Source of the DNA: Viola odorata
Taxonomy: Eukaryota > Streptophyta > Magnoliopsida > Malpighiales > Violaceae
NCBI GenBank assembly: GCA_963691705.1
Contig: OY829545.1
Span: 14,769,569 to 14,833,568, forward strand
Length of the DNA stretch: 64,000 nucleotides
Reading direction: 5' to 3'
Part shown: one piece after another, positions 18,470-46,210 of the stretch
How positions within the stretch are numbered: the stretch's first letter is position 1
Layout: the number at the start of each line of letters is the position of its first letter
Notes under the pieces: generated by a model
The model's input: the letters and a program-made list of their open reading frames with translations, nothing else
Told to the model about the DNA's origin: nothing
Databases searched by the model: none
Translations under genes and position numbers: made by a program

Positions 18470-18482
18470 TGGTAGCGGAGCG
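18470..18482 (+). other. Primer binding site of copia element
   Basis: The sequence tggtagcggagc directly follows the 5' LTR and resembles the usual plant copia site tggtatcagagc, which is complementary to the 3' end of initiator tRNA-Met. There are two mismatches. Confidence 0.7.
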
Positions 18483-18729
18483 ATATCTCTAACGAGCTCT
18501 CTGCAATTTAGCATATATTTTTTTTTACGGCCAAAAGCCTCCGCACGAGCCTCACGCGCCGCTCACTCGGTACGACTCTGGCCAACTGTAATCGTCCATT
18601 TACAGTGCCTTCCAACCATTTTCTTGATACACGCACCACTCCAACACGTTCACCACCGTCGATTTCATCGACCTGAGAAGTTTCATCCAATTCACTCATT
18701 TTCCTCCTTCACGCGCAGGCAAGCTGTCA

Positions 18730-18925
18730 CCAGTCCACGTGTCCCATTCTCAGTGGTCCACGCGTCGCCTACTCACTGGTCCACGTGTCGCTCAATCACT
18801 GGTCCACGTGTCGTTAAACACTGGTCACGTGTCACCTCAATACATGTCCACGTGTCGTCTCAACACTGGTCCACGTTTCGTCTCAATACTGGTCCACGTG
18901 TTGCCTTATCGCTGGTCCACGTGTC
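18730..18925 (+). repeat. Tandem G-box-containing repeats in the copia leader
   Basis: Roughly nine degenerate copies of a 20-24 bp unit (core ctggtccacgtgtcg) lie between the primer site and gag. Seven retain an exact CACGTG core and six read CACGTGTC. This is the G-box/ABRE class bound by bZIP and bHLH factors in plants. Their role here is inferred, not shown. Confidence 0.8.
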
Positions 18926-19171
18926 TTTTTTACTATAGAATTGTTGACTTTGACCAGTCGGTTCAACTCTTTGACCGACTGGTTCATCATCATCCAGACC
19001 GGTTTTTCAGAATTTTCGACCGGTTCCTACCATTTTCGAAGGTTCTCTTTCCGAATCCGAGGTCCGTTTTGTCAAAATCAGACTTCAATTATCCGGTTCA
19101 TCATCATTACGACCAGTTTGATCACTCACTTTGTTATTTACCTAGTTCAATTGATCTAAATTCCTATCATC

Positions 19172-23498: not shown

Positions 23499-23731
23499 TG
23501 TTGTTGAATATCAGAGAAACCCAAAGTCCACCTCCGCGTGCTCCACCTCCGCGTGCACCGTCTCCACCTACCATGCACCAAAGTCCAAGAGCTGAAGATA
23601 TGCAATATCTCTAGGTTGAATACACACACATCCAAGCTCATCCTTGTATCTATAAATAGACGTAGCATAGCATTGTAATAAATCAAGCAATTCATTCAAA
23701 ATATCAATCAATACAATTCTAAGTTTTTATA
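23448..23731 (+). repeat. 3' LTR of copia element
   Basis: A 284-bp partner of the 5' LTR, with two substitutions (a/g near LTR positions 26 and 44). It is followed at once by the target duplication aagac. Confidence 0.95.
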
Positions 23732-25157: not shown

Positions 25158-26585
25158 AACTTCTTGATGAGCCGACATTGACGCAAAGAGGGCATGCCGA
25201 TTTTGATTAATCTTTTGGTTTCAAACTTTCAAGTACTGTTTGATTAGTTTATTATCAGGTTGATGACATTGACAAGAGATTAATTTACAATTTTTTCAAC
25301 ATCTTTTGTCACATCTCATGACTTTTGCTTAATCAATCTGATTATCGGCCGAACGAACCAATGTAGATGTTGAGTTTAAGTATAAGATATTTATCCGATT
25401 AAGATGGAGAGAGGAAGCAAGGAAACTATAATTAATCAATTAGAATGTGATCTATAACCTAACCATAGGTAAGATTAGTAACTAATTTGCAGCAAACAAT
25501 GATAACCTTTGCAAGATGTTGACCTATTTCGTAAACGCCAACGGTAAACACCAACATTCAAGCATAACGCCTGAATTCGAGCTGTCCAAAGATGCAGACA
25601 TGATGAACATCTAAAAAGAATAGCTGAGAATTGATCTACAAGTATTTTTTTCCAGTGGTCCGTGTGCCCTCTCTACCCGAAACCCTTTCGGGTAATGAGA
25701 GTAATTATTTAGTTTAAGTATAATCGAGCCTCTAAAAAAATACTTTTCTAGCATGATTTTTTTTATTCCCCAAACTTGAATATAGTTGGTATATATATAT
25801 ATATAACTTAAATGAACATTTTTGGTTCTTAAAGTATAATATTTTATTTAATTTGTTCCATAAGACTTTATTTAATTTAATCCCTCTAAGATTTTCCGCT
25901 AACTAAGAGTGTTGACGTGTAAGTTTCATACCACGTGTTAAATGATCAAATTAAACAAAATGATCATGCTTTAGGGACCAAATTAAACAAAGTGTAAGGA
26001 CTCCACTACTCCTTTCAATTTGTGAATCGATCATGTAATTGGGTAGTCCGTGATGTGGCGAGAAAAACCCTATTTGAAGATGCATTATATCACTCTAGTT
26101 ACTCAGTCATGAGTTAGCTTCAGACTACCACTCATGTGTAGAAGTCACCTCTTTTTTTTCTCGTCAATGAAATATTTTTTCTTTTGACAAAAAAAAATTA
26201 TACTTTAGCAGCTAAATTAAACAAATTTATAATTTACGGTGCATGTTAGTTACAGCCTATGTGGCCCAAAAATGGCACATCTTCAACCTTAGCCGGTTGC
26301 AAGTAATAGAAAGACCAAATTAAACAAAATTGTTATACTTTAAGAATCAAATTAAATAAAATTATATTTATGGAACTAGCTTAAATAAAGTATTACATTT
26401 TAGGTACAAAATGTCATTTGAACATATCACTTTCGATGGTTCATTTCATTAATTTTGTCCTGGAATCTTTGATTGTGTATAAATTGTGAACTTTCCTATA
26501 GTGTTAATTCAACCAAAACTAAGACACTAATTAAATCAACAAGTAGTAGTAGTACTTGCAACTGAGCTGATCATCCTTAATTGTC
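25158..26585. other. Intergenic spacer and promoter region of ABCB copy 4
   Basis: Part of this spacer (for example gaattcgagctgtccaa near 25574) is also found upstream of copy 5 (near 54264), so spacer and gene were duplicated together. A TATA-like tataaat lies at 26478-26484, about 100 bp before the copy 4 ATG, with the same surrounding text as upstream of copy 5. A MITE-like repeat is listed separately. Confidence 0.65.
25806..26424. mobile_element. MITE-like element with imperfect terminal inverted repeats
   Basis: The two ends are imperfect inverted repeats of about 40 bp: ttaaatgaacatttttggtt at the left, and the reverse of a tail reading aggtacaaaatgtcatttga at the right. The interior repeats phrases such as accaaattaaacaaa. 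There is no coding capacity. The superfamily is not clear and no target duplication was established. Confidence 0.45.
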
Positions 26586-27210
26586 ATGTCACAAGAAATC
26601 GTAGGAGAGGATCATGGTGCTGATCATCATACAACAATATTAATGCAAGAAGAAGTCGTCAAGGTCAAAGATACTGCTGCTGCTGCTGCTGATCATGATG
26701 AAAAGAAGCCTGAAGCTGCAGGGAAGAACAATAAAACAGTGCCATTTCTAACACTTTTTGGATTTGCAGATTCAATTGACATGGTGTTGATGGTGATTGG
26801 GACGGTTGGTGCCGTCGGGAATGGGGTCTCCATGCCCATCATGGCCATACTCTTTGGAGATTTGATTAATTCCTTCGGCCAAAACCAGGGCAACAACAAA
26901 GGCATGCTTGAGCTCGTCTCCAAGGTAACACAAAATTATAGTACTACTTAACTAGTCTCGAACGCGTGATATATATACGAAGGCCGGATAAACAAAGCTG
27001 GTGTTGAAGATATACAGTACCAACAGTCACCGGTTTGACTTTTTTTTTAATTTTTAATTTTTTTTATATATGGGCTACTGTTTAGTGCTTGGGAACTAAG
27101 GGGCTGTTAAGGCTAGAAACTAGAGAGAGAAATTAGTGAGACATAGAGATTGAAGGAAAGTGCTCTCGTTATATTGATTTCTCGTGTTTTACAAATGAAG
27201 GAGAAGTCTC

Positions 27211-27503
27211 CTTATATAGAAAAACTAATCATGAAAGGCCAAAACAGGTGGCCGACAAAAAGAAAGGGAATCTTAAAAAGAAATGGCCTTAATTAAAAGT
27301 GGCCAAAAGATAAAAAGCTAAAGCTAAATAATTACATCCTGCCAAAAGACAGGCGGCTAGTTGATATTTAACTTTAACAGCTGTCTTCTGTGTATGTCAT
27401 CGCTTACGTCTGTTTATTGTAGACGTCATTGCTTGCGTCATTTCTTTCGTCTGCCTGAGTGTTTTCTAGAGGTCTCTGTGTGTATCTGGAATACTTACGT
27501 CAT
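27211..27503 (-). promoter_or_regulatory. Viral promoter, left copy, pointing toward ABCB exon 1
   Basis: Mirror of the right-arm promoter. On the minus strand there are as-1-like motifs at about 27494-27503, 27421-27440 and 27394-27412, then a TATA box (plus text cttatataga at 27211-27220). Transcription from here would run leftwards, antisense through exon 1 and the promoter of ABCB copy 4. Confidence 0.7.
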
Positions 27504-28074
27504 TGTCTTCTTCCATGTCTGTTATCGCGTTGTCTTGAAGATCTGTTACTAGATTGACGATGTGATCTTCATCTAACAGTCGTCCATCTCCTGAGTGTGG
27601 TAGGAACATCCTCCACTCTCTGGTGCTGTAGATTTGAATGAAATACCCTTCTCCTAGGAGACGATACTCCATCCATTTTTCTGGTGTATATAGGCTGTGA
27701 GGACTCTGTGCTACTTTGTAGATTTCTGGATTTTCTATTTCTTGGAAATCATAGGGAGATAGTGAAATCCCCATATGAATATCATGAATGCTTTCTTCTT
27801 CTCTGTCTGCCGAAAAGATGAAGATTCTTTTCTTTGCAGGGATAACTTCAAATCCTCTGGCCACTGGTAGTGTGGAATCAATGAAACATTCTAGTTTCTT
27901 TCTTATTGCCATGTTTCCTGCAACTAGAAAGAACTTTTCTCCAAACTCTTCTAAATATTTATCAATGTTTCCTTCTTCTTCCAATTTGAATGTGATTTTA
28001 TCAATCATTCCCATATGGAAAAAAGAAAGAATTTTCTGGAATGGCATGTCTGTATCGTTTAAAGAATTTTTCAA
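27466..28074 (-). pseudogene. Viral transactivator/viroplasmin C-terminal part (left arm)
   Basis: A 202-residue open frame overlaps the end of the RNase H frame and lies just before the viral intergenic region, the usual place of gene VI (transactivator/viroplasmin) in several caulimovirid genera. I recognise no domain in it directly. The call is inferred from position and from the fact that the N-terminal part of a viroplasmin-type protein follows a second copy of RNase H elsewhere in the locus. It is probably the remainder of that gene after an internal deletion. An identical copy is at 40377-40985. Confidence 0.5.
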
Positions 28075-28417
28075 TATTTCTAGATAATAAATCTGCTAAA
28101 CTGTTATTTTTTTCTTTAATATGTTCGAAACATATTTTGTATCCATTTCCCTGTATTAAATTCTGTAAATTAACCCATCGAGTTCTGTTTATTTTCTTGC
28201 TGTTTTCGTTTTTAAGAAATTTAACTATGGCTTCACAATCTGTTCTAACTGTGAATTCATTTTGTAGATATATTTTAAACTTATCTAAAGCATTTATTAA
28301 TGCTTGGATTTCATAGTCTAAACTAGTCCAATTTTGTCCTGTTTTAAAATTACCACTCGTATATGCAGCAATTTTTTCTATTTCTTTATCTGAATACTTA
28401 TTGGGTTTACAAAGCAT
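28001..28417 (-). pseudogene. Viral RNase H domain (left arm, out of frame with RT)
   Basis: It encodes the caulimovirid RNase H C-terminal half (NWTSLDYEIQALINALDKF; DCEAIVKFLKNE). The RT frame ends at 28446, about 30 bp away and in another frame. A single-base change between the domains has split the polyprotein. The same split is in the right arm, so it predates the inversion. The tail after FFK differs from the RNase H copy at 30627-30995, which shows two different downstream contexts. Confidence 0.85.
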
Positions 28418-28445
28418 TACTGCTCCCCATCCTTCTTTACTGCCA

Positions 28446-30455
28446 TCACATTCTTATAATAATATAATCTGTGGTTAAGGGTAATTCTAATGGTTTTATC
28501 CTCTTAACTTGTTCTTTAATTCTTTTTACTAATTCTATGTCCTCTTTGTTAAAATTTCTCTGACCATTCTTCGTTGTTTTGCTGTATAAAGGTCCTACTA
28601 GTTTACTTAAATTTGGAATAAATTTTCTAGCGTAATTTAATATTCCTAGAAAGGCTTGTATCTGTTTTAAGCCTTCTAATTTGTCTGGAAAATTTAATAT
28701 TTTTTCTGCTATATGTGGTTGTAGTTCTATCTTTCCATTTCCTATTTCTAATCCTAAGAAGGATATCTTTTTCTTGTATAACTCCATTTTTCTTTTACTA
28801 ACTACTATACCGTGTTTCTCTATTTCATTAAAAATCTGTCTCAAGTGTTCTTCGTGTTCTTTAATAGAGTTGCTTGCTACTAATATATCATCTATATAAA
28901 CTAGACAGAATTCGTATTTTAAGAATATCGAATCCATAAATCTTTGGAAGACTGCTGGTGCATTCTTTAAGCCAAAAGAGAGAACATTCCATTCGAAATG
29001 TCCTTCTGAGCATGTAAAAGCAGTCCATTGTTTAAACCACTCTTCTAATTTTAATTGATTATATCCTGATTTTAGATCAAATTTGCTAAAAATCTTTTTT
29101 TGTTGTATTAATCCTATCAGGCTATCTTTGTTAGGGATGTTATAGGCATCGTCTATGGTGTTATCATTTAATCTTTTATAATTATAAACTATTCTAGCTT
29201 TTCCTCTCTTGATTTCGCTATGATTTCTTACTATAAATGCGGCTGATCTGTGTGGACTCTCCGATCTTTTAATTAGTCCTTGTTTTAACATTTCTGGAAT
29301 CTGTTTTCTAAATTCTTCTTTATCTAATGGACTATAGTCTATATTGGCTGTTACTATTCTTATATCTGGATTTTTAATCTGCATTTTTACTTCATAATTT
29401 ACTTTACTTTTAGTAATATCTTCTCCTATTAATCCTATCTTTTCTAATTTCTGTATTATAGGATAATTTCTACTAGTCCTAATGTCTGGTCCTTTTTCTA
29501 ATTCTAAGGCTAATTCTTTTCCTAGCATAGTATATGTTTCATTTTCTATATACTCTGTTCTCTTATTATCCGGTTTTAAAAATTCTAAGGTGGGTTGTCC
29601 ACCACGCTTTCGTGCTAACTCTGCTGTTTGTATATATTTATTAGTTGGAAAGGTATATACATTTTTACTGATTGTTATGCTGTTTCTAGCTATAGCAATA
29701 CTGCCATTTAAACTACATATGAAATTTAGTCCTAATAAAAAGTCATTACTTTTTGTTTCTTCAGGTGCTATATTGATCTGTGGAATGTCGTATTTTATAC
29801 TGTAATTTTGTGCAAAATCTATAAACTGTATTCCTAAAGCTTCTACTTGATGTGTTATAACCATTGTTCTTTGTTCAGCTGTTTTTGTAATTATTCTATA
29901 TTGTAATTTTTTATGATATTTTAGTGGTATTAAGCTATATCCCACCATACTTTTTGAGCTTGCTGTGTCTAAAATAGCATTTAATTCTACAAAGGTATTT
30001 GTATCTAACCAAAGTCTACATTTTAGGGTTATTAGGGTTATTAGGCTTGCTATACATTTACTAATAGTAAAGGCCGATTCTTCCTGAATTTGTTCTGTGA
30101 GATAACTTGACTCTGCATCTACTTGCTTCTTTTTATCATGTTGATTCTCAAGTTCTTTTACTCTATGTTTTAAGAGTTCTATTTCTACATCATGCCTTTT
30201 AATTTGCTCCCTAAGTGTTTCATCTACTGTATCACTGTGATTCCTATCTGTGGTTTTTCCTGATATATCTGTTTCTATTTGGAATAATTTTCTAATACAC
30301 ATAAAACATATTTCTTTAAAGCAATTATTACATTGGTATCTTCTGTCTATAGCTGGATATAGTCTACAGTTATAACAATTTATATGATTGTTTCCTCTGT
30401 TTCTAATCCATTCATGTAAACATTCTACTACTTCTTCATTCTGTTCTCTATTCAT
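28446..30455 (-). pseudogene. Viral polyprotein part: Cys-rich motif, aspartic protease, RT (left arm)
   Basis: An open frame of 669 residues. A Cys-rich motif with spacing C-x2-C-x11-C-x2-C-x4-C-x2-C (residues about 23-50) is followed by a coiled-coil-like charged stretch, an aspartic protease region with LDTASS (near residue 158, DTA rather than the usual DTG), and a full RT with the YIDDILVAS active-site motif. The frame continues upstream into the coat protein zinc-knuckle region (about 30638), so this is part of a longer movement/coat/protease/RT polyprotein. It copies the viral genome through an RNA intermediate in the family. Here it is cut at the 5' end by an inverted junction and at the 3' end by a frameshift. 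Confidence 0.9.
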
Positions 30456-30626
30456 GTATGTATATGTAATTTTTGTACTGTTTTCTGGCTCATTTTCTGA
30501 TGCTATACTGTATACTGATTCATTATCGGAATCTGTCTTGATATTTTCTATTTCGTATTCTCCTAATTGTTCTACTAAATTTGTTCTATCTATATTTTTA
30601 TGCTTATTAGGACATCTATTTGCTAA

Positions 30627-30995
30627 ATGCGGTGGATCTGTAAACCCAATAAGTATTCAGATAAAGAAACAGAAAAAATTGCTGCATATACGAGTGGTAA
30701 TTTTAAAACAGGACAAAATTGGACTAGTTTAGACTATGAAATCCAAGCATTAATAAATGCTTTAGATAAGTTTAAAATATATCTACAAAATGAATTCACA
30801 GTTAGAACAGATTGTGAAGCCATAGTTAAATTTCTTAAAAACGAAAACAGCAAGAAAATAAACAGAACTCGATGGGTTAATTTACAGAATTTAATACAGG
30901 GAAATGGATACAAAATATGTTTCGAACATATTAAAGGAAAAAATAACAGTTTAGCAGATTTATTATCTAGAAATATTGAAAAATTCTTTAAATGA
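30627..30995 (+). pseudogene. Second viral RNase H fragment (left arm, opposite orientation)
   Basis: The same RNase H segment as 28001-28417, now on the + strand, starting abruptly at the junction near 30638 with the coat-protein zinc-knuckle region facing the other way. Here the frame ends FFK and stop, and the stop overlaps the start of the next gene (ATGA at 30992), a compact arrangement typical of these viruses. Confidence 0.85.
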
Positions 30996-31925
30996 TACAG
31001 GCAGAGATGAAAAAACGGGTGTTAAAACCCAAAGAGCAGATGTTTCAAGAACAGACAGAAGATCAACAGAAACAAGATACTCAAGAATCAGTATCAGACA
31101 GAACTATTATGTACAGAAATAATTTGGCTATGCCAGTTACAATTACAGAAAGAGTATCATCATCCTCAAACATACAGATTCCATTCACACAGGTAAACAG
31201 AAATCTCTCTACTAGAAGAGGAGCACAGAACGAGATTAGATTTGGAACAATGTATCTCACAGAATTTCCTGATGGAGGAAATAAAAAATTTAAACCCTTT
31301 GAGGGATTAAATATCGACAGAGAACAACAGTGCCTGCTAGATAACCTCTGGCATATACAGACAGCTCCCGTAGCAACACAGTTCAAGGTACAATGCTTAA
31401 ATGCTTTAAGCATGTACTTCTCTGAGAAGAACCCAAAGATACAGAAAAAATCCTTTTCACATTATGTCATTTATAGAGGTTTAAAAACAGGTGTCTTTAA
31501 CAGTTTCAACACAGTAAAAAATTACATCATGTGTCAAAACCCAATCTATGTGGGTTATCACAGTTTTGCAGAAGCCCTAGAAGAAGCAAGGGCCCAGCTA
31601 GGCCCAAACTTCTACATAGAACCTGAAACAGTTAGACCCTATTCAGAAGTGGCCCAAGAAAATCCCAGTCGACTAATAGCCAGATTAGAAGACAAAAACA
31701 GAAAGCTAGAAGAACAACTACCACAGTTTCAACAACAGACTGCCAACCAAATAACCTTCATAGAACAAGAAAAGATTGAAGCAGAAAGAAAGATCAAACA
31801 GAAAGATAGTATAATGGGTAGCTTAACTACCAAATTACAGCAATTAGATAAATTTATACAGGAAAACAAACAGAAACCCAAAAATAGAAGCTTTTCACAA
31901 CTTCGAGCTAGGTTATTAGATATGC
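30992..31925 (+). pseudogene. Viral transactivator/viroplasmin, N-terminal part (left arm), interrupted by LTR element
   Basis: The ATG at 30992 overlaps the RNase H stop. Residues about 150-205 (HYVIYRGLKTGVFNSF ... YHSFAEALEEARAQLG) resemble the viroplasmin / RNase H1 N-terminal domain of caulimovirid gene VI proteins. Residues about 225-295 form a long charged coiled coil. In this family the protein builds inclusion bodies and lets ribosomes reinitiate on the polycistronic RNA. The viral frame is recognisable to about 31925 (LRARLLDMP). The remaining residues to 31996 come from the inserted retroelement, so the gene is truncated. Confidence 0.75.
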
Positions 31926-31953
31926 CAGCCTATTTCACCCTTAAACCATTGAT

Positions 31954-33635
31954 TGATGGTTTATTTTGGATGTTTTATCTTCTCTTTTATTATTAATTTA
32001 GATGATAATTATGCTACTTTAAGCCCTTTTGCTTCCTTTCTCTATAAACAACCTTTGGTACATCAATATGAAGAAAAGGAGCAGAAAGCTTGAAGATTAG
32101 AGCTTAAATCAATCATTTGGTGATGGAGTCCCGTTTTCAGCTTTGCTGCCTTGAATTTGGTCCATTCGTCCCAAGGCCACTTCACTATTTTGCCGAGATC
32201 AGCTCTTCTCGAGGCCTTGACATGAAGCGACCTGTCAGAGTTCCAGCCTGGACAGCACTGGGCGTATTTTTGTATTTAATTTGTGAGTGCTGGTTCAGCC
32301 AGCCTGGAACCTGGAGGACTTGAGCACGAGTATTAGTGCCTGGATTCCCTCTTCCACCTTGCAGAAGCACCAAGGGGACATCAATGGAAGAATGACGAAA
32401 CATTCCCTTTGCATTATTCATGAATATTCTCTCCAAAAGTGATGTAGTGCCCAGCTCCAGCCTGGTTTGGCAGCACATGTTTGTGAGTGCTGTAATTATT
32501 TTATGGTGAAGGCTGGACCTTTGAAGTCTATCAGAGGAGAAGAAGAATGGCTATTAATAGGACAACGAAGCTAAGAAGAGGGGGGAATCATTAGGACAGT
32601 AGGAGGAAAGTGGAGAGAAAATCAGCATTTTCTCTCATTTTCCAGATTTTCCAGCTTTTTGTATTTTCGGTTTTGCACTTCTTGTATCATTTTCCATTAT
32701 GTTTTGTAACTAAGAACCTCCATTCCTGGTAGGGATCTTGTGGTTGATGATTCCTGTAGGTTGTGAGACTCTTTGATCTTCAATAAAAACGTTTTTCATA
32801 TTTCTTTCCTTCTTGTTTTAACTCCAATTTGTTCATGTTTAAGTTTGAGTTTGGCCAACTTGGATTTTGATTTGAATGATTACAGTCAGTTCTCTTGTGA
32901 TTAAATCACTCTTAGAGAGCAGTAGTAGACGAATCAGCAGGGCATGAGGTGCATGTGCTTGGTCTAAGCTGATAGAAGGAACTGAACTAGACTACCCTCC
33001 CATCCCGAGGCCTTGAGAAGGGCCGACCTAGGTGACAGCTGGGTCAAGTGCCAGACTAGACCAGACTTGTGGATGATGAAAGTACTCCCTTGTCTAGAAG
33101 AGGGACCTCACTATTTTTAATCAATCTCTTGAGCTTTTCCATAAGTATTCTGATCCCTTTGTCGAAGGCTCTGCATAGCCAAGCAAAGTGGCGGGTCAAG
33201 AGTCTTAGGATGAGCTTAGGAAGATTAGGGTGTTTAAAATGAAGTGATTCTTTTAAATACTTTTGTAGCAGGTTGGGAATCTAGTGTGAGCTGGTTCCAC
33301 AACTTCTTCTATGAAACCGTTTTGAAAATACCTTTGTCAATGATCAACTAGCTTGGAATTGTCACCTCATAAGGATCTCTACTAGGGATTTTCTTTCTCT
33401 TCTGTACCTCTTCGTTTCACTTCTGTTTTCTTTCATGCATTCTTATTTTCGTTCTTTTTGTTTCTCAACCAATCAAACTCTCACCTCTTTACTTATTATT
33501 GTCATTTGCAGGAGCAATAAAGATCAGACCGATTTGTCCCTGTGTTCGAACCTCTTGCCGCTATGCACAAATCCTTTTTGCTGCTTGGTGATAAGTTGTA
33601 ATCTTTTTATTTATGATCGGATTCGACCCCCGTCA
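31954..33635 (+). mobile_element. LTR of a Ty3-type retroelement nested in the viral gene (left arm)
   Basis: A 1682-bp segment with termini tgatgg and ccgtca, followed five bases later by a tRNA-Asp primer site. A TATA box (ctataaaca) is at 32042-32050. The exact left edge is uncertain: it lies between 31925, where viral coding stops, and 31954. Small frames inside the LTR are not genes. An identical-length copy is in the right arm at 34816-36497. Confidence 0.75.
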
Positions 33636-33640
33636 TAAAT

Positions 33641-33657
33641 TGGCGCCGTTGCCGGGG
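33641..33657 (+). other. Retroelement primer binding site (tRNA-Asp)
   Basis: tggcgccgttgccgggg is the complement of the 3' end of plant tRNA-Asp. This site is typical of Athila/Tat-type Ty3 elements. Confidence 0.85.
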
Positions 33658-33715
33658 ACAACGGTGTACTGATTTTCGTTTTTCTTGTTTCTGATAATTT
33701 TCAGTTTTCTTTTTT

Positions 33716-34390
33716 ATGAGCAATTTCAATTATTTTTCTCAATCAGCCCCTATTCCTCAAAGTTTTGGTGTAGGAGATGTGTCCAGCCATGAAGGATGTT
33801 TTGGTCCGCCACAGTGGGGATATGAGCCAAATTATAATCCATCCATATCTACTCCTTATCCCACTTGGTGGAACCAACAAAGTTCTGATTATGGAGTGCA
33901 ATCAGTTCCTGATTATCAATATTTCCAGCCTCCGCAACCTAGCCAAGTACCTACTGTTTCTGAAATTTTAATGAAAACCTTAATTCCATTTATGCAGGAA
34001 ACAGAGGAGAATTTAGCAAGGTTAGCGAAGCAAATGAGAGAACTTGCACTTGAGCAGGAAAGACAGAGATGCATACCTTCAAACTTCCAACCAGATGTGG
34101 AATCTGATGCTAGCACTGCCTCTTTTGTGAGCAACAAAAATCTGCCCGAGCAGGACGCTTCATCTCAAGGCCTTGAGATGAACGACCCGGAACCAGAAAC
34201 AAGCCCAGAAAATTCAGCAGAAGTTGCCACTCAGTCAAAGCAGTCCAATCAGACCCAAACTCATTCTAGCACGTCACTGGAGCAGAAGACGAAGTTTGTG
34301 GACACTTGTTGTAGCATCGAGCTAGAGGAGGATGAGAGGAAGATTGAGGAAGAAATCAAAGTGGTTGAGAATCCACATACGGTTGTGTAG
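33716..34390 (+). pseudogene. Retroelement gag N-terminal fragment (left arm)
   Basis: A 224-residue frame starts 59 bp after the primer site. The first half is rich in Q, P, Y and S (MSNFNYFSQSAPIPQSF...). A predicted helical stretch follows (about residues 85-120), then an acidic S/T/E/Q-rich tail. I recognise no domain. Its position right after the primer site and its composition suggest the leader-proximal frame (gag or equivalent) of an Athila/Tat-like or non-autonomous Ty3-type element. It is cut off by the palindrome centre, so there is no pol and no 3' LTR. Confidence 0.5.
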
Positions 34391-34447
34391 CATCGAGATA
34401 TTAAAGGGATCAATATAATCAAAGAAATTTAAAACTTCCCTTTCACA
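34389..34447. other. Loop at the centre of the giant palindrome
   Basis: About 59 bp of unpaired sequence separates the two arms. The innermost paired segment is gtggttgagaatccacatac plus ggttgtgt at 34361-34388, with its complement at 34448-34475. Read on the minus strand, the loop continues the retroelement coding frame, so the fold-back point lies inside the retroelement. Confidence 0.9.
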
Positions 34448-34475
34448 CACAACCGTATGTGGATTCTCAACCACT

Positions 34476-34735
34476 TTCATTAAAATTTCAGAAACAGTAG
34501 GTACTTGGCTAGGTTGCGGAGGCTGGAAATATTGATAATCAGGAACTGATTGCACTCCATAATCAGAACTTTGTTGGTTCCACCAAGTGGGATAAGGAGT
34601 AGATATGGATGGATTATAATTTGGCTCATATCCCCACTGTGGCGGACCAAAACATCCTTCATGGCTGGACACATCTCCTACACCAAAACTTTGAGGAATA
34701 GGGGCTGATTGAGAAAAATAATTGAAATTGCTCAT
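34476..34735 (-). pseudogene. Retroelement gag N-terminal fragment (right arm, 384-bp deletion)
   Basis: Mirror of the left fragment but missing the 128 codons that lie at 33977-34360 on the left. The frame is kept and runs across the central stem and loop to 34322. Deletion ends share an aaa microhomology. Confidence 0.7.
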
Positions 34736-34793
34736 AAAAAAGAAAACTGAAAATTATCAGAAACAAGAAAAACGAAAATCAGTACACCGTTGT

Positions 34794-34810
34794 CCCCGGC
34801 AACGGCGCCA
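34794..34810 (-). other. Retroelement primer binding site (tRNA-Asp), right arm
   Basis: Reverse complement of the site at 33641-33657. Confidence 0.85.
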
Positions 34811-34815
34811 ATTTA

Positions 34816-36497
34816 TGACGGGGGTCGAATCCGATCATAAATAAAAAGATTACAACTTATCACCAAGCAGCAAAAAGGATTTGTGCATAGCGGCAAGAGG
34901 TTCGAACACAGGGACAAATCGGTCTGATCTTTATTGCTCCTGCAAATGACAATAATAAGTAAAGAGGTGAGAGTTTGATTGGTTGAGAAACAAAAAGAAC
35001 GAAAATAAGAATGCATGAAAGAAAACAGAAGTGAAACGAAGAGGTACAGAAGAGAAAGAAAATCCCTAGTAGAGATCCTTATGAGGTGACAATTCCAAGC
35101 TAGTTGATCATTGACAAAGGTATTTTCAAAACGGTTTCATAGAAGAAGTTGTGGAACCAGCTCACACTAGATTCCCAACCTGCTACAAAAGTATTTAAAA
35201 GAATCACTTCATTTTAAACACCCTAATCTTCCTAAGCTCATCCTAAGACTCTTGACCCGCCACTTTGCTTGGCTATGCAGAGCCTTCGACAAAGGGATCA
35301 GAATACTTATGGAAAAGCTCAAGAGATTGATTAAAAATAGTGAGGTCCCTCTTCTAGACAAGGGAGTACTTTCATCATCCACAAGTCTGGTCTAGTCTGG
35401 CACTTGACCCAGCTGTCACCTAGGTCGGCCCTTCTCAAGGCCTCGGGATGGGAGGGTAGTCTAGTTCAGTTCCTTCTATCAGCTTAGACCAAGCACATGC
35501 ACCTCATGCCCTGCTGATTCGTCTACTACTGCTCTCTAAGAGTGATTTAATCACAAGAGAACTGACTGTAATCATTCAAATCAAAATCCAAGTTGGCCAA
35601 ACTCAAACTTAAACATGAACAAATTGGAGTTAAAACAAGAAGGAAAGAAATATGAAAAACGTTTTTATTGAAGATCAAAGAGTCTCACAACCTACAGGAA
35701 TCATCAACCACAAGATCCCTACCAGGAATGGAGGTTCTTAGTTACAAAACATAATGGAAAATGATACAAGAAGTGCAAAACCGAAAATACAAAAAGCTGG
35801 AAAATCTGGAAAATGAGAGAAAATGCTGATTTTCTCTCCACTTTCCTCATACTGTCCTAATGATTCCCCCCTCTTCTTAGCTTCGTTGTCCTATTAATAG
35901 CCATTCTTCTTCTCCTCTGATAGACTTCAAAGGTCCAGCCTTCACCATAAAATAATTACAGCACTCACAAACATGTGCTGCCAAACCAGGCTGGAGCTGG
36001 GCACTACATCACTTTTGGAGAGAATATTCATGAATAATGCAAAGGGAATGTTTCGTCATTCTTCCATTGATGTCCCCTTGGTGCTTCTGCAAGGTGGAAG
36101 AGGGAATCCAGGCACTAATACTCGTGCTCAAGTCCTCCAGGTTCCAGGCTGGCTGAACCAGCACTCACAAATTAAATACAAAAATACGCCCAGTGCTGTC
36201 CAGGCTGGAACTCTGACAGGTCGCTTCATGTCAAGGCCTCGAGAAGAGCTGATCTCGGCAAAATAGTGAAGTGGCCTTGGGACGAATGGACCAAATTCAA
36301 GGCAGCAAAGCTGAAAACGGGACTCCATCACCAAATGATTGATTTAAGCTCTAATCTTCAAGCTTTCTGCTCCTTTTCTTCATATTGATGTACCAAAGGT
36401 TGTTTATAGAGAAAGGAAGCAAAAGGGCTTAAAGTAGCATAATTATCATCTAAATTAATAATAAAAGAGAAGATAAAACATCCAAAATAAACCATCA
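34816..36497 (-). mobile_element. LTR of nested Ty3-type retroelement (right arm)
   Basis: A 1682-bp mirror copy of 31954-33635 with the same termini. Near-identity shows it comes from the inversion, not from a second insertion. Confidence 0.75.
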
Positions 36498-36589
36498 ATC
36501 AATGGTTTAAGGGTGAAATAGGCTGGCATATCTAATAACCTAGCTCGAAGTTGTGAAAAGCTTCTATTTTTGGGTTTCTGTTTGTTTTC

Positions 36590-37459
36590 CTATATAAATT
36601 TATCTAATTGCTGTAATTTGGTAGTTAAGCTACCCATTATACTATCTTTCTGTTTGATCTTTCTTTCTGCTTCAATCTTTTCTTGTTCTATGAAGGTTAT
36701 TTGGTTGGCAGTCTGTTGTTGAAGCTGTGCTAGTTGTTCTTCTAGCTTTCTGTTTTTGTCTTCTAATCTGGCTATTAGTCGACTGGGATTTTCTTGGGCC
36801 ACTTCTGAATAGGGTCTAACTGTTTCAGGTTCTATGTAGAAGTTTGGGCCTAGCTGGGCCCTTGCTTCTTCTAAGGCTTCTGCAAAACTGTGATAACCCA
36901 CATAGATTGGGTTTTGACACATGATGTAATTTTTTACTGTGTTGAAACTGTTAAAGACACCTGTTTTTAAACCTCTATAAATGACATAATGTGAAAAGGA
37001 TTTTTTCTGTATCTTTGGGTTCTTCTCAGAGAAGTACATGCTTAAAGCATTTAAGCATTGTACCTTGAACTGTGTTGCTACGGGAGCTGTCTGTATATGC
37101 CAGAGGTTATCTAGCAGGCACTGTTGTTCTCTGTCGATATTTAATCCCTCAAAGGGTTTAAATTTTTTATTTCCTCCATCAGGAAATTCTGTGAGATACA
37201 TTGTTCCAAATCTAATCTCGTTCTGTGCTCCTCTTCTAGTAGAGAGATTTCTGTTTACCTGTGTGAATGGAATCTGTATGTTTGAGGATGATGATACTCT
37301 TTCTGTAATTGTAACTGGCATAGCCAAATTATTTCTGTACATAATAGTTCTGTCTGATACTGATTCTTGAGTATCTTGTTTCTGTTGATCTTCTGTCTGT
37401 TCTTGAAACATCTGCTCTTTGGGTTTTAACACCCGTTTTTTCATCTCTGCCTGTATCAT
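36590..37459 (-). pseudogene. Viral transactivator/viroplasmin, N-terminal part (right arm)
   Basis: Mirror of 30992-31925 with a premature TAG (about 36590-36592) and a few substitutions in the coiled coil. It keeps the viroplasmin-like domain. The last viral residues before the LTR lie beyond the stop. Confidence 0.75.
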
Positions 37460-37824
37460 TTAAAGAATTTTTCAATATTTCTAGATAATAAATCTGCTAA
37501 ACTGTTATTTTTTCCTTTAATATGTTCGAAACATATTTTGTATCCATTTCCCTGTATTAAATTCTGTAAATTAACCCATCGAGTTCTGTTTATTTTCTTG
37601 CTGTTTTCATTTTTAAGAAATTTAACTATGGCTTCACAATCTGTTCTAACTGTGAATTCATTTTGTAGATATATTTTAAACTTATCTAAAGCATTTATTA
37701 ATGCTTGGATTTCATAGTCTAAACTAGTCCAATTTTGTCCTGTTTTAAAATTACCACTCGTATATGCAGCAATTTTTTCTGTTTCTTTATCTGAATACTT
37801 ATTGGGTTTACAGATCCACAGCAT
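37456..37824 (-). pseudogene. Second viral RNase H fragment (right arm)
   Basis: Mirror of 30627-30995. It joins the plus-oriented zinc-knuckle segment at about 37812. Confidence 0.85.
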
Positions 37825-40005
37825 TTAGCAAATAGATGTCCTAATAAGCATAAAAATATAGATAGAACAAATTTAGTAGAACAATTAGGAGAATACGAAA
37901 TAGAAAATATCAAGACAGATTCCGATAATGAATCAGTATACAGTATAGCATCAGAAAATGAGCCAGAAAACAGTACAAAAATTACATATACATACATGAA
38001 TAGAGAACAGAATGAAGAAGTAGTAGAATGTTTACATGAATGGATTAGAAACAGAGGAAACAATCATATAAATTGTTATAACTGTAGACTATATCCAGCT
38101 ATAGACAGAAGATACCAATGTAATAATTGCTTTAAAGAAATATGTTTTATGTGTATTAGAAAATTATTCCAAATAGAAACAGATATATCAGGAAAAACCA
38201 CAGATAGGAATCACAGTGATACAGTAGATGAAACACTTAGGGAGCAAATTAAAAGGCATGATGTAGAAATAGAACTCTTAAAACATAGAGTAAAAGAACT
38301 TGAGAATCAACATGATAAAAAGAAGCAAGTAGATGCAGAGTCAAGTTATCTCACAGAACAAATTCAGGAAGAATCGGCCTTTACTATTAGTAAATGTATA
38401 GCAAGCCTAATAACCCTAATAACCCTAAAATGTAGACTTTGGTTAGATACAAATACCTTTGTAGAATTAAATGCTATTTTAGACACAGCAAGCTCAAAAA
38501 GTATGGTGGGATATAGCTTAATACCACTAAAATATCATAAAAAATTACAATATAGAATAATTACAAAAACAGCTGAACAAAGAACAATGGTTATAACACA
38601 TCAAGTAGAAGCTTTAGGAATACAGTTTATAGATTTTGCACAAAATTACAGTATAAAATACGACATTCCACAGATCAATATAGCACCTGAAGAAACAAAA
38701 AGTAATGACTTTTTATTAGGACTAAATTTCATATGTAGTTTAAATGGCAGTATTGCTATAGCTAGAAACAGCATAACAATCAGTAAAAATGTATATACCT
38801 TTCCAACTAATAAATATATACAAACAGCAGAGTTAGCACGAAAGCGTGGTGGACAACCCACCTTAGAATTTTTAAAACCGGATAATAAGAGAACAAAGTA
38901 TATAGAAAATGAAACATATACTATGCTAGGAAAAGAATTAGCCTTAGAATTAGAAAAAGGACCAGACATTAGGACTAGTAGAAATTATCCTATAATACAG
39001 AAATTAGAAAAGATAGGATTAATAGGAGAAGATATTACTAAAAGTAAAGTAAATTATGAAGTAAAAATGCAGATTAAAAATCCAGATATAAGAATAGTAA
39101 CAGCCAATATAGACTATAGTCCATTAGATAAAGAAGAATTTAGAAAACAGATTCCAGAAATGTTAAAACAAGGACTAATTAAAAGATCGGAGAGTCCACA
39201 CAGATCAGCCGCATTTATAGTAAGAAATCATAGCGAAATCAAGAGAGGAAAAGCTAGAATAGTTTATAATTATAAAAGATTAAATGATAACACCATAGAC
39301 GATGCCTATAACATCCCTAACAAAGATAGCCTGATAGGATTAATACAACAAAAAAAGATTTTTAGCAAATTTGATCTAAAATCAGGATATAATCAATTAA
39401 AATTAGAAGAGTGGTTTAAACAATGGACTGCTTTTACATGCTCAGAAGGACATTTCGAATGGAATGTTCTCTCTTTTGGCTTAAAGAATGCACCAGCAGT
39501 CTTCCAAAGATTTATGGATTCGATATTCTTAAAATACGAATTCTGTCTAGTTTATATAGATGATATATTAGTAGCAAGCAACTCTATTAAAGAACACGAA
39601 GAACACTTGAGATAGATTTTTAATGAAATAGAGAAACACGGTATAGTAGTTAGTAAAAGAAAAATGGAGTTATACAAGAAAAAGATATCCTTCTTAGGAT
39701 TAGAAATAGGAAATGGAAAGATAGAACTACAACCACATATAGCAGAAAAAATATTAAATTTTCCAGACAAATTAGAAGGCTTAAAACAGATACAAGCCTT
39801 TCTAGGAATATTAAATTACGCTAGAAAATTTATTCCAAATTTAAGTAAACTAGTAGGAACTTTATACAGCAAAACAACGAAGAATGGTCAGAGAAATTTT
39901 AACAAAGAGGACATAGAATTAGTAAAAAGAATTAAAGAACAAGTTAAGAGGATAAAACCATTAGAATTACCCTTAACCACAGATTATATTATTATAAGAA
40001 TGTGA
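37813..40005 (+). pseudogene. Viral polyprotein part: zinc-knuckle end, Cys-rich motif, protease, RT (right arm)
   Basis: Plus-strand mirror of the left-arm block. The Cys-rich motif (CYNC ... CNNCFKEICFMC) is at about 38063-38145, the protease DTA at about 38482, and RT YIDD at about 39553. A CAG-to-TAG change at 39613-39615 stops the frame inside RT. The same frame resumes to 40005, where the shared frameshift separates it from RNase H. As in the left arm it is not functional as read. Confidence 0.9.
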
Positions 40006-40033
40006 TGGCAGTAAAGAAGGATGGGGAGCAGTA

Positions 40034-40450
40034 ATGCTTTGTAAACCCAATAAGTATTCAGATAAAGAAATAGAAAAAATTGCTGCATATACGAGTGGTA
40101 ATTTTAAAACAGGACAAAATTGGACTAGTTTAGACTATGAAATCCAAGCATTAATAAATGCTTTAGATAAGTTTAAAATATATCTACAAAATGAATTCAC
40201 AGTTAGAACAGATTGTGAAGCCATAGTTAAATTTCTTAAAAACGAAAACAGCAAGAAAATAAACAGAACTCGATGGGTTAATTTACAGAATTTAATACAG
40301 GGAAATGGATACAAAATATGTTTCGAACATATTAAAGGAAAAAATAACAGTTTAGCAGATTTATTATCTAGAAATATTGAAAAATTCTTTAAACGATACA
40401 GACATGCCATTCCAGAAAATTCTTTCTTTTTTCCATATGGGAATGATTGA
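40034..40450 (+). pseudogene. Viral RNase H domain (right arm)
   Basis: Mirror of 28001-28417, out of frame with RT. The catalytic-Asp region (ECDGS) lies just before the listed start, in the same frame. Confidence 0.85.
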
Positions 40451-40985
40451 TAAAATCACATTCAAATTGGAAGAAGAAGGAAACATTGATAAATATTTAG
40501 AAGAGTTTGGAGAAAAGTTCTTTCTAGTTGCAGGAAACATGGCAATAAGAAAGAAACTAGAATGTTTCATTGATTCCACACTACCAGTGGCCAGAGGATT
40601 TGAAGTTATCCCTGCAAAGAAAAGAATCTTCATCTTTTCGGCAGACAGAGAAGAAGAAAGCATTCATGATATTCATATGGGGATTTCACTATCTCCCTAT
40701 GATTTCCAAGAAATAGAAAATCCAGAAATCTACAAAGTAGCACAGAGTCCTCACAGCCTATATACACCAGAAAAATGGATGGAGTATCGTCTCCTAGGAG
40801 AAGGGTATTTCATTCAAATCTACAGCACCAGAGAGTGGAGGATGTTCCTACCACACTCAGGAGATGGACGACTGTTAGATGAAGATCACATCGTCAATCT
40901 AGTAACAGATCTTCAAGACAACGCGATAACAGACATGGAAGAAGACAATGACGTAAGTATTCCAGATACACACAGAGACCTCTAG
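40377..40985 (+). pseudogene. Viral transactivator/viroplasmin C-terminal part (right arm)
   Basis: Mirror of 27466-28074, 202 residues and apparently identical. It overlaps the RNase H frame by 74 bp and is followed directly by the viral promoter region. The function call is inferred from position. Confidence 0.5.
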
Positions 40986-41240
40986 AAAACACTCAGGCAG
41001 ACGAAAGAAATGACGCAAGCAATGACGTCTACAATAAACAGACGTAAGCGATGACATACACAGAAGACAGCTGTTAAAGTTAAATATCAACTAGCCGCCT
41101 GTCTTTTGGCAGGATGTAATTATTTAGCTTTAGCTTTTTATCTTTTGGCCACTTTTAATTAAGGCCATTTCTTTTTAAGATTCCCTTTCTTTTTGTCGGC
41201 CACCTGTTTTGGCCTTTCATGATTAGTTTTTCTATATAAG
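40949..41240 (+). promoter_or_regulatory. Viral promoter, right copy: three as-1-like elements and TATA box
   Basis: TGACG-type motifs occur at 40949-40957 (tgacgtaag), 41011-41029 (tgacgcaagcaatgacgtc) and 41039-41057 (cagacgtaagcgatgacat). The last closely matches the as-1 element of the cauliflower mosaic virus 35S promoter, a site for TGA-type bZIP factors. A TATA box (tctatataag) is at 41231-41240, so transcription would start near 41265 and run rightwards through the primer site, the movement/coat protein frame and on toward ABCB exon 2. Confidence 0.75.
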
Positions 41241-41475
41241 GAGACTTCTCCTTCATTTGTAAAACACGAGAAATCAATATAACGAGAGCACTTTCCTTCA
41301 ATCTCTATGTCTCACTAATTTCTCTCTCTAGTTTCTAGCCTTAACAGCCCCTTAGTTCCCAAGCACTAAACAGTAGCCCATATATAAAAAAAAAAAAAAA
41401 AAAAGTCAAACCGGTGACTGTTGGTACTGTATATCTTCAACACCAGCTTTGTTTATCCGGCCTTCATATTTTTAT

Positions 41476-41487
41476 TGGTAGCAGAGC
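41476..41487 (+). other. Viral minus-strand primer binding site (tRNA-Met)
   Basis: tggtagcagagc differs at one base from the plant pararetrovirus consensus tggtatcagagc, complementary to initiator tRNA-Met. It lies about 235 bp downstream of the TATA box, as expected for the pregenomic RNA leader. The palindrome ends just 10 bp before it. Confidence 0.75.
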
Positions 41488-41743: not shown

Positions 41744-42250
41744 AAACTTTTTCCAAACATCTTCAAAGTATTAAAAATTGCAAATCCAAGGCTAAAACGC
41801 ATCGAATACCTAGATCTAGAAGTATCAAAAGAAAAATATAGGATAACAACAGAAGGAAGTGAAGTTAGTTGCAGAATAGACAAATCTGTAGAGCATAAAC
41901 TTCATAGTTCAAACGCTCATTTAAACGGATTAACAGATCTAATCATAAGTCTAGGAAATCACCTAGAAACAGAAAAATAAATTATTAATAAACAGATTAG
42001 TAATATAACAGGAGTTATATCAGAAAATAATAGATTCATAAAAATTATAACAGAAAATTTAGATTATATCAGAGGACAAAACGAACATATTCTTACAGAA
42101 TTTAAAAAGACCAGATCTACAGACAAAAGACCAGAAGAGTCACAAGATATCGTAGGATTAACGAAAGCCTTAGATAGGTTAAAACTAGACAACAATCAAA
42201 GAGTTAGTGTTAAACCTATTAAATATAATCACTGGTTACCTAGAAAATGA
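41744..42250 (+). pseudogene. Small viral frame upstream of the movement/coat protein frame, no ATG, one internal stop
   Basis: One frame reads like coding sequence (many charged residues, no stop except one TAA at 41978-41980) from the stop at 41741-41743 to a TGA at 42248-42250. That TGA overlaps the next ATG as ATGA. No in-frame ATG is present before the internal stop. It resembles by position the small ORFs before the polyprotein in badna- and tungro-type viruses, some of which start at non-AUG codons. I recognise no domain. The internal TAA marks it as broken. Confidence 0.5.
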
Positions 42251-44886
42251 ATAACTTTACACCTTTTAGTGGATCCAGTAGAACAGTACAGGAACCAAGT
42301 AGAAGAGAAGAATCTAGGAGAAGTGTATCTTCTAGAGACGAGGTAAACAATTCATTCTTAGGAAGAGTATTTAGTAGAGGGTCAGGAAGTAACAGTTCAG
42401 AAACAGTAGTCCAATTAGAAGAAGAAATCGATTTAGACAGAAACTTAGAAATATATAACAATGAGCAATTAGATGCTCTAAATCCTAGAACTTTATACAG
42501 GGTAGGACCTCTAAATATAAATACAGTACTTATTAGAAGTAATAGAGAAGAAAGTCTAAGGGTAGTGGATACAGCAGAAACAATAGATTTATTCACCCCA
42601 GAAATGATAAATAAAATAAAGAAAACAGAGAAAATATTTGCACATGTAGGGTTAGTAGTAATAGGAATAAAAGGATTAGGAAGAAAAGAACTAGGAACCA
42701 AAGTTTTAGTTTTAATACTAGATAAATCATGGAAAACAGACGTCAAGAAAGCAACCATAGCTGGAATGGAAGTAGACCTTAGTCAGAACTGTGCACTTTT
42801 TTATTGTGCGCCAGCAATATTAAAAGATATAAGAGATTTAAAAAATTTAAAAATAGGACTATCAACAAAAGGATATGAAGACTACAAAGGAAACAATCTA
42901 GTAATTAGTATAGGAATACTAGGAAAGGCTAGTAATAGATCAGGAATGAATTATAACATTAATATAGAAGGAATTGTAGAAAACTTAGCAAGTCGTGGTA
43001 TAAGAATGATAGATCCAGTTAAAATAGATGCAGAAAATTCAGCAGGATTAGAATGGCCTCTAAAGGAATTTATAGACACAACAGAAAAAAATTTAGTACC
43101 AGAAAAAAGTGTGATATATGAAGATAAAGATGGTAACTATAGCATGAGATTTAATAATTATGTAGAAAAAGAACCAACCAAAGAAGATGATAGTGACCAA
43201 GAAATTAGTATGATGAATGCAGATTTAGGAGAACCAGTATATGATACAGAAGGTGAAATAGATCCTATATATGACACAGAAAATGAAGAAATAAATGATC
43301 TTATAGGATACGGATTATATGAAGAACTAGGCGAAGAACTAGAAGAATTAGAAGAAGTAGCTGGTTTCAAAACAGAAGAAGTACAAAAGACATTTGAACA
43401 AATAGTAAATAAAAAATTTATAGAGACCAACCTACAGGAACAAGTCGATGACATGATAATAGAATGTATGACAGAATTAGGATTAGAATATGAAGAGGCT
43501 TATAACAAGCTAAATGAAGTATTTAACCTACCATTAGTAACAGATATAGTCAATGGAAAAATAGTAATTAGTGATTTTTACAAACCAGAAGTTAGTTTTA
43601 TGGACCAAAATATAGACTCAAGAGGAATAAAAAGACCAAAACCTGAGTTCGTAACACCGGGAACATCAGGAACAGAAGTATTAGGTAGAGAACCTTGGAC
43701 ACCTGCTACGACGGTATACCAGGGAGAGTCGAACTTCAAAGGAAGAGGGGCAAGAATGCCAATAGGAAAATTGTATAGTTCAAACATGCTATTAATAGAA
43801 CAACAGAGTCCTCAGTTATGGCCAGATGAAATACTAGTATGGGAACAAACAGTAGTCAGGAATTGGGAAACTAACAAAAGAGATAATATAGATATGTTTT
43901 CCTACTTAGAAACAACATTAGGACCAACAGCCTTAGGTATTTGGCAAAGTAAAAAATTAAAAGATCCAGATAGTATAAACACTATTAAATCATTAGGAGA
44001 CAATCCCTATAATTTCACAAGCCAAATTAGAATTTTATTATTAGGAGTAGATCCAGCAAAGGAAAATACATTTATACAGGATACTGCAGTCAGAAATTTA
44101 GAACAGCTTAGTATTACAGATTTCAAATATATCAAAGAATTTAGCTCAGATTTTGCTAGATTGTTAGCACAAACTGGTAAAGCCATGGATGATGATTTAT
44201 GCAATAAATATTTCATAAAGCTTCCAGGCGATTTAGGTAGATTAATGCATGAGGAATGGAATAGAGATTGTGGTCACATAGTAGACTTAGGAATAGGACC
44301 GAGAATTACATACGTATTTAAAAAGTTAGAAGATAAATGCAAAGAAGCTACAATGCAAGAACAAATAAAACGTCAATCTTGGGCGTTTTGTAGAACAGCT
44401 ATTTATACACCACAGGCATATGGATACTATGATAAAAAGAAAAAATTCCTTAGAAAAAGTACGTCTTATAGAAAAGATAAACCTTGGAAAAATAAAGATA
44501 GATATGTTAAAAAACCTAGAGATAGAAGTTGCACGTGTTTTATCTGTGGAGATCCACAGCATTTAGCAAATAGATGTCCTAATAAGCATAAAAATATAGA
44601 TAGAACAAATTTAGTAGAACAATTAGGAGAATACGAAATAGAAAATATCAAGACAGATTCCAATAATGAATCAGTATACAGTATAGCATCAGAAAATGAG
44701 CCAGAAAACAGTACAAAAATTACATATACATACATGAATAGAGAACAGAATAAAGAAGTAGTAGAATGTTTACATGAATGGATTGGAAAGGTATTCAAAA
44801 CAGAAGAAGTACAAAAGAACCTTGAACAAATAGTAAATAAAAATATATATTATTTTTTATTTATTTTAATTACATATTTATTATAA
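42247..44886 (+). pseudogene. Viral movement protein / coat protein frame, 3' end rearranged
   Basis: An open frame of 879 residues. Residues about 60-290 show the pattern of a 30K-superfamily movement protein (SQNCALFYCAP, then hydrophobic strands to GILGKASN). An acidic linker (about 300-400) follows, then a coat protein (about 510-740) ending in a basic region and a CCHC zinc knuckle (CFICGDPQHLANRC, residues 764-777, nt 44536-44577). The frame then enters the start of the Cys-rich region shared with 37996. At about 44787 it jumps to a copy of its own internal segment (compare 43369) and ends in host-like AT text. In intact relatives the protein would continue into protease and RT. The start ATG overlaps the upstream stop. 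Confidence 0.88.
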
Positions 44887-46202: not shown

Positions 46203-46210
46203 GGCTGCGT

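Follow-up and report, generated by a model that had tools for sequence, protein, structure and literature searches.

Intron 1 of an ABCB-type transporter gene in Viola odorata contains a near-perfect palindrome of approximately 14.5 kb, which we analyzed within a 64,000-nt stretch of DNA (the window; C9:14769569-14833568 of a 699-Mb assembly of 26 contigs, with all positions below counted along the window). The outer parts of the palindrome derive from an endogenous pararetrovirus of the Caulimoviridae and its core from a long terminal repeat (LTR) retrotransposon. Overall, the locus is best explained by integration of the virus, arrival of the LTR element within it and a later mirroring of the combined block, which would have left a passive hairpin-RNA locus; we put the probability of this reading at about 0.6. 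RNA transcribed through both arms would fold into a near-perfect hairpin, and such a locus would add a long, young and very perfect example to the inverted-repeat endogenous caulimovirids, a class linked in tomato and soybean to DCL2 and 22-nt small interfering RNAs (siRNAs).

Geometry and composition of the palindrome

As assembled, the palindrome was borne out almost to the base. The original prediction, made from the same letters, had described arms of 7.4 and 7.0 kb with about ten substitutions; here, repeat finding, blastn and global alignment were concordant on a left arm of 7413 nt (26976..34388, minus strand) and a right arm of 7022 nt (34447..41468, plus strand), the latter without a counterpart of 381 left-arm nucleotides. 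Repeat finding placed the arms at 27051-33976 / 34475-41400, with an outer piece at 26969-27055 / 41389-41475. By blastn, arm aligned with arm over 7008 columns at 99.70% identity, with 14 mismatches, and global alignment from 26976 to 41468 gave 12 substitutions, 11 inner and one at the border, together with a short stretch of poly-A/T indels. In the left arm, 6728 of 7392 22-mers (91%) are perfectly paired.

The tip of the palindrome is a perfect 31-bp stem (34358-34388 / 34447-34477) around a loop that measures 58 nt (34389..34446) rather than the 59 nt first given. The first 13 nt of the loop (34389-34401) are filler, of which the first 9 nt are also present at 34313, and the remainder is native retroelement sequence in right-arm orientation. 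The unpaired left-arm stretch (33977..34357, 381 nt, plus strand) is missing from the right arm through a deletion with a 3-nt overlap, and is retained in native copies of the LTR element.

The arms had also been taken as viral throughout. This holds for approximately the outer two thirds of each arm, whereas the inner third (2.4 kb; 31950-34388 and its mirror) belongs to the LTR retrotransposon, so that a palindrome made entirely of virus is ruled out.

Hallmarks of the Caulimoviridae are present, namely an aspartic protease, reverse transcriptase (RT), RNase H, a 30K movement protein, a coat protein and a transactivator/viroplasmin (TAV). In the left arm, a protease and RT frame (28446..30656, minus strand; PF21024 E=4.1e-25, PF00078 E=1.6e-34) stands beside the outer copies of an RNase H frame (28001..28453, minus strand; PF17917 E=7.8e-13) and of a frame downstream of the TAV region (27466..28095, minus strand), which had no Pfam match. 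Head to head with the outer RNase H copy lies a second RNase H piece (30639..31003, plus strand; 99% to 28047-28411), followed by a TAV frame (30992..31949, plus strand; PF01693 E=1.5e-4, which at 22.4 bits is barely over the 21-bit cut-off) truncated by the LTR element. Repeat finding and the frames place the mirror of TAV and the second RNase H piece at 36502..37812 (minus strand), and that of the protease, RT, RNase H and downstream frames, seen as frames in both arms, at 37795..40985 (plus strand). The viral part thus shows rearrangement of its own: each arm holds two copies of a 365-nt RNase H piece in opposing orientations, and the RT and RNase H frames are out of register in both arms alike.

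The order of the viral frames can be read at C2:46.39 Mb, where an RNase H-TAV stretch and the downstream stretch are colinear, 242 nt apart. Since RNase H, TAV and the downstream frame form a single colinear order there, the outer viral copy of both arms lacks part of TAV. A bipartite virus, with one component represented by the outer RNase H copy and the other by the RNase H-TAV piece, is ruled out. The RT frame finds its best protein match in Helianthus annuus (70%), the other seven matches being unnamed (31-54%). Among viral contigs, neither RT nor TAV found a relative in single-protein queries, which reach close relatives only, and there was no Rfam match.

Past the right arm, viral DNA extends to ~44.8 kb. 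Just beyond the arm is the word TGGTAGCAGAGC (41476..41487, plus strand), which we take to be the tRNA-primer site of the virus and through which the virus continues. Further on lies a movement protein-coat protein frame outside the palindrome (42244..44886, plus strand), with a movement protein match exactly at its 23-bit cut-off (PF01107 E=6.6e-5) and a clear coat protein match (PF22909 E=1.6e-29). A 240-nt repeat of 37812-38051 (44550..44789, plus strand; 98.75%) shows the circular map of the virus overlapping itself.

From the LTR element, which is ~4 kb long, the left arm holds the 5' LTR (31950..33635, plus strand), which points to the loop and has its start, TGATTG, and its end, GTCA, in common with two genomic copies, L011 and L012. 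In these, paired LTRs lie ~4 kb apart and the pairs are 99.6% identical (TG...CA); a 5-bp target duplication, GTGGC, flanks L012. The window locus has one LTR per arm, that of the mirror at 34816..36501 (minus strand; inner coordinate from symmetry). At 33640..33658 (plus strand) there is a sequence that we take, from its motif, to be a primer-binding site, and slightly differing versions of it occupy the equivalent position in L011 and L012; judging by this site, the element may belong to the Athila/Ty3 lineage. A leader open reading frame follows (left copy 33698..34388, plus strand, the frame running to 34390), for which neither a Pfam match nor a protein relative was found. There is no polymerase sequence in the window's portion of the element, the insides of L011 and L012 not having been searched for coding domains.

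The LTR element occurs at at least 39 other genomic places (40 of 184 candidates scored); here and below, genome-wide counts are lower bounds, with 40 candidates scored per search. Head-to-tail rows of four or five elements were also seen, at C2:39363776-39380324, C5:33876772-33889453 and C3:1164541-1177111, with near-fixed spacings of 4035, 4091 and ~4050 bp, as though LTRs were common to neighbors.

Order of events and origin of the mirror

The junction between TAV and the LTR (31949|31950; mirror 36501|36502) is common to both arms and was seen in these two arms alone. A query spanning 30639-32300 gave 41 genomic matches (40 of 1479 candidates scored), two of which are the arms. Among the other 39 matches listed, 34 extend as far as query base 1318-1319, which corresponds to window 31956-31957 and is no more than 8 bases from where the LTR starts, five stop earlier and none crosses into the LTR. 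The compared viral copies that reach the junction continue as virus, sharing at most two initial bases with the LTR start; joining of TAV and LTR via shared bases was rejected, these copies matching only the first one or two bases of the LTR. Most likely, the LTR element joined TAV at this locus by insertion. Because both arms carry the junction, the mirror would be younger than the insertion, and we read it as having arisen late, in the genome, by inverted duplication or conversion.

A different origin would lie with the virus itself, the head-to-head form stemming from viral replication or integration and the arms representing two viral molecules. Both orientations are indeed present at 12 of 48 other viral loci, and the virus commonly ends at the primer site, so inverted integration may be frequent. 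As the sole cause, however, such a concatemer is set aside owing to the shared TAV/LTR junction; the arms have the LTR joined at the same base, share the same viral rearrangements and are 99.8% identical. We consider this origin improbable, the version that would still fit being an older inverted pair that was later homogenized.

At the center of the palindrome, native copies of the LTR element (L009-L012) match the right-arm continuation to 34402, the left arm halts at 34388, and 13 nt lie between. End joining with templated filler is a familiar route of DNA repair, and the center, with its filler, looks like its product.

At the left border (26969..26978), the viral end abuts host DNA within a short run of TA, stopping a few bases short of the primer site of the virus; the exact base is ambiguous. 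Eighteen distinct other viral copies were compared at the primer site, counted from comparison rows with duplicates merged and not representing a random draw of loci: nine leave the virus at or beside the site, with TA runs following in five of them, and the remaining nine continue through it. As half of the other copies end there, five in TA runs, the left border resembles an ordinary integration end, and the idea that it lies at a chance position was dropped. Flanking TA repeats are often found at caulimovirid insertions, according to the available text of PMC10377300 (here and below, papers are cited for the part of their text that was available). The right arm passes through the primer site into the leader and the movement protein-coat protein region. 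These borders are compatible either with a duplication that was closed when shared viral sequence recombined, or with conversion of a pre-existing inverted pair. A fold-back DNA transposon with long terminal inverted repeats was rejected, given that no target-site duplication was seen, the right border lies inside continuous virus and the left in a host TA run. No empty site could be read from the paralog, since intron 1 of the neighboring gene 5 is unalignable past its first bases. As a separate observation, the viral ends at or beside the primer site in nine of 18 copies may be a sign that the viral DNA was linear, having been opened at the minus-strand gap.

The 11 inner substitutions were compared with 36 other loci. 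Five are private to the left arm and four to the right, and at the other two both forms occur in other loci, a pattern as expected of two arms drifting apart, although private changes alone could be errors. Ten of the 11 changes fall in the viral part and one in the LTR part, which is compatible with chance (P=0.13). With commonly applied plant substitution rates, the arm divergence of 0.16% would correspond to an age of the order of 0.1 million years; conversion would make the arms look younger.

Since amplified long-read libraries yield artificial palindromes (PMC6218980), we also considered that a chimeric fold-back read had been built into the contig. Such a read is disfavored because of the different flanks, the one-sided 381-nt deletion and the filler. 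Private changes on both arms, the two sites at which other genomic loci show both forms, and further inverted loci whose arms differ by up to ~1.7% also speak against an artefact of assembly or library, which we judge extremely unlikely.

In the history that we favor, whose steps (virus, LTR element, mirror) are read from the sequence, a caulimovirid would have integrated at a TA-rich spot in ABCB intron 1 and then been rearranged, and a 4-kb LTR element would have entered its TAV region, most likely by insertion. Repair of a break within the LTR element would then have doubled the virus-plus-LTR block head to head, with the 13-nt filler as its seal, by inverted duplication or by arm-to-arm conversion of an older inverted pair. 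The 381-nt loss near the center and about ten point changes would have followed. Such an order would show how DNA repair after integration can build loci of this kind.

Promoters and the predicted hairpin RNA

In each arm the outer viral copies point away from the loop and, apart from the LTRs, which face it, only the short RNase H-TAV pieces read inward. The left LTR has the same orientation as the host gene, and motif look-up within this LTR placed TATAAA at 32043 and AATAAA at 32782 and 33516, all before the loop. This anatomy, in which the AATAAA words of the left LTR precede the loop and the outer virus points outward, speaks against a viral hairpin of 7 kb transcribed from the host promoter, as first envisaged. 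A plausible hairpin-RNA locus of a known kind is retained from that proposal, with its promoter logic moved to the LTRs and its viral share reduced to approximately two thirds.

We propose that read-through from either LTR would cross the loop and yield a hairpin whose stem comprises up to ~2.4 kb of LTR-element sequence and would be diced by DCL2, DCL3 and DCL4 into 21-24-nt siRNAs mostly matching the LTR family. The dicing of long hairpins into siRNAs of these sizes is established in plants (PMC6256188). Pairing of the outer viral arms would be confined to longer transcripts, which are expected to be rarer. Host transcription from exon 1 would run into the left LTR in the sense direction and probably terminate within it, and viral transcripts would exit the palindrome. 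A testable rule can be drawn from this: siRNA output should track the loop-facing promoters, here the LTRs, and not the host gene or the viral promoter.

Between 89% and 91% of the viral 22-mers recur exactly in 36 other loci, so siRNAs from the window could act on many copies and would leave few unique reads; for the same reason, this locus offers few viral targets of its own. Useful places for locus-specific reads would be the TAV/LTR junctions and the filler. The siRNAs would add to the silencing of many other copies, for which a dedicated immune role is unnecessary.

Such a role had nonetheless been suggested, with the intron 1 hairpin RNA either protecting against a living viral relative or silencing the ABCB gene. 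It would have parallels in tomato, where inverted-repeat copies are able to act in trans on transcripts that match them and silence these (PMC10377300), and in siRNA-giving intron hairpins, for which a term exists, sirtrons (named in PMC5545994). However, no living virus was identified, most viral 22-mers recur elsewhere as described above, and the inner third of the stem is non-viral, so the claim of antiviral immunity stays conjectural. The host copy is frameshifted, and silencing of it, likewise unsupported, would matter little if the copy was already broken. A dedicated immune or regulatory locus is, in our view, very unlikely.

Several points weigh against the passive hairpin-RNA locus and its history as we read them. 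The promoter and poly(A) words are motif look-ups, with AATAAA function presumed; the locus is known here from DNA alone; and such loci can be silenced chromatin giving mainly 24-nt siRNAs, as described for the pararetrovirus copies of Citrus and Fritillaria (PMC6256188). As to the history, the 10:1 split of changes between virus and LTR leans toward an older viral pair, yet fits chance; both outer borders look native, so that either arm may be the copied one; and the LTR insertion, its other end lost at this locus, allows no target duplication test.

The mainly 24-nt siRNAs of Citrus and Fritillaria and the description of the locus from DNA alone, along with the decay of the ABCB host copy, would suit an inert by-product of the same history, lying in silent methylated chromatin and giving no hairpin transcript, where any small RNAs would be 24-nt products of RNA-directed DNA methylation, as happens with many integrated pararetroviruses. 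Against it are the loop-facing LTRs and the tomato inverted-repeat members, which are a transcribed subset producing 22-nt siRNAs (PMC10377300). We regard an inert locus as a serious possibility, though not the expected one.

Comparison with known systems places the locus in a recognized class. In tomato, rearranged inverted-repeat endogenous caulimovirids feed DCL2-dependent 22-nt siRNAs (PMC10377300, on Valli et al.), and tomato hybrids show changes in the 22-nt small RNAs to which endogenous pararetroviruses give rise (PMC9124383). In soybean, inverted repeats derived from caulimovirids and transposable elements give DCL2-dependent 22-nt siRNAs (PMC10377300). The window locus has the structure of the tomato type, known as TSAs: rearranged, integrated caulimovirid pieces form an inverted repeat that could fold into a long hairpin (PMC10377300). 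It differs from the TSAs in its core, the 5' LTR of an unrelated repeat, and in its 58-nt loop.

The soybean inverted repeats resemble it in placing a virus-derived inverted repeat beside or with a retroelement. There, an insertion of cucumber mosaic virus (CMV) RNA1 that lies downstream of a Copia promoter forms a 3.4-kb repeat whose spacer measures 0.5 kb (PMC6256188); in contrast, the window arms are approximately twice as long, the LTR lies within them facing the loop, and CMV is an RNA virus. Endogenous banana streak virus likewise combines a pararetrovirus in direct and inverted copies with a neighboring LTR retrotransposon, its copies being duplicated in both directions and eBSGFV being flanked by a Ty3/Gypsy element (PMC10377300). 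In the window, however, the LTR element lies inside the virus and is mirrored with it.

Sirtrons are intron hairpins that give siRNAs in expressed genes; the inverted repeat of the window is likewise in intron 1, but its gene copy is frameshifted. Arabidopsis IR-2039 is an inverted repeat able to give hairpin siRNAs. IR-71 of the same species is another (PMC6256188); the window locus differs from both in consisting of virus plus LTR element and in lying in an intron and, from these as from the tomato TSAs, in being described by sequence only. Among the titles and abstract openings listed by a literature search that fell short of most subscription journals, no pararetrovirus/LTR mirror in an intron was found.

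Inverted loci elsewhere in the genome and the host gene

Two viral probes gave 99 matches, of which 97 were used and two, at 68-71%, were left out. They define at least 49 viral loci, and both orientations occur within 10 kb at 13 of these, the window included; by single probe, the figures are 5/33 and 8/35 loci, again with the window. With the LTR element as a control, both orientations were present at 2 of 27 loci, one being the window. Excluding the window, inverted pairs are thus found at 12/48 loci for the virus vs. 1/26 for the LTR family (two-sided P=0.026), which is weak evidence of enrichment, the virus having had two probes and the LTR element one.

Five other loci, chosen for reading because they held opposite pairs, have arms of 2.3-7.9 kb at 98-99.7%. 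At C10:15.57 Mb the arms measure 3794 nt (99.7%, spacer 4.0 kb), at C2:5.54 Mb 3018 nt (99.6%, spacer 448 nt) and at C9:23.09 Mb 2324 nt (99.3%). The locus at C1:18.54 Mb has arms of 6760 + 1121 nt (98-99%, spacer 4.8 kb), a total that exceeds the arms of the window, and that at C9:41.43 Mb spans ~8.1 kb in all (98.8%) with no spacer, the innermost 300 bases per side being 90% paired. A locus chosen for a same-direction pair, at C7:36.99 Mb, carries, besides 3.8-kb direct repeats, inverted repeats of ~2.7 kb at 99.8-100%, which are cut off at the edges of the stretches read. Inverted arms above 87% were absent from two further loci, each of which had one RNase H-TAV match. Among the inverted loci read, that of the window combines very long arms with a short loop and is of a kind that is locally common, which suggests that the class is common in another plant genome.

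A more speculative and rather unlikely extension is that the inverted viral loci form a dispersed battery, in which the mirrored LTR, by supplying two loop-facing promoters, would make the window locus a self-transcribing source of siRNAs with a double target, the virus and LTR families. The likeness drawn here, for loop-facing LTR promoters making such a source, is to a plant counterpart of PIWI-interacting RNA (piRNA) clusters.

The window itself is a tandem array of ABCB-type transporter genes, with Pfam ABC_tran and ABC_membrane in the frames of genes 1 and 4; among solved structures, ABC transporter B family member 19 (8woi) is the best relative of a gene-1 frame. The placement of the palindrome in intron 1 of such a gene, gene 4, stands as originally proposed. 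Exon 1 (26571..26924, plus strand) is an open frame aligned to exon 1 of gene 1, with a donor GT at 26925, and the paralog stretch 54836-55212 is 85% identical to 26552-26943. The other exons, from ~48.4 kb, occupy 48365..53436 (plus strand), one of them (~49116-49354) being split over two frames by a break near 49.26 kb. Intron 1 is longer than 21 kb in gene 4 vs. ~1.2 kb in gene 5, whose exon 1 lies at 54.9 kb. Gene 5 has a stop in exon 1 (54855-55212) and a frame break near 60.85 kb (60570-60919). Both genes are probably pseudogenes, unless the breaks are sequencing errors.

To the right of the virus, an AT-rich stretch (44790-47822) includes 20/40-bp tandem repeats (47391-47548), and parts of it recur around other viral loci. 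Upstream of the palindrome, gene 3 consists of ABCB fragments (17385-25302) split by a Copia element whose 287-bp LTRs (18183-18469 and 23445-23731) are 99% identical.

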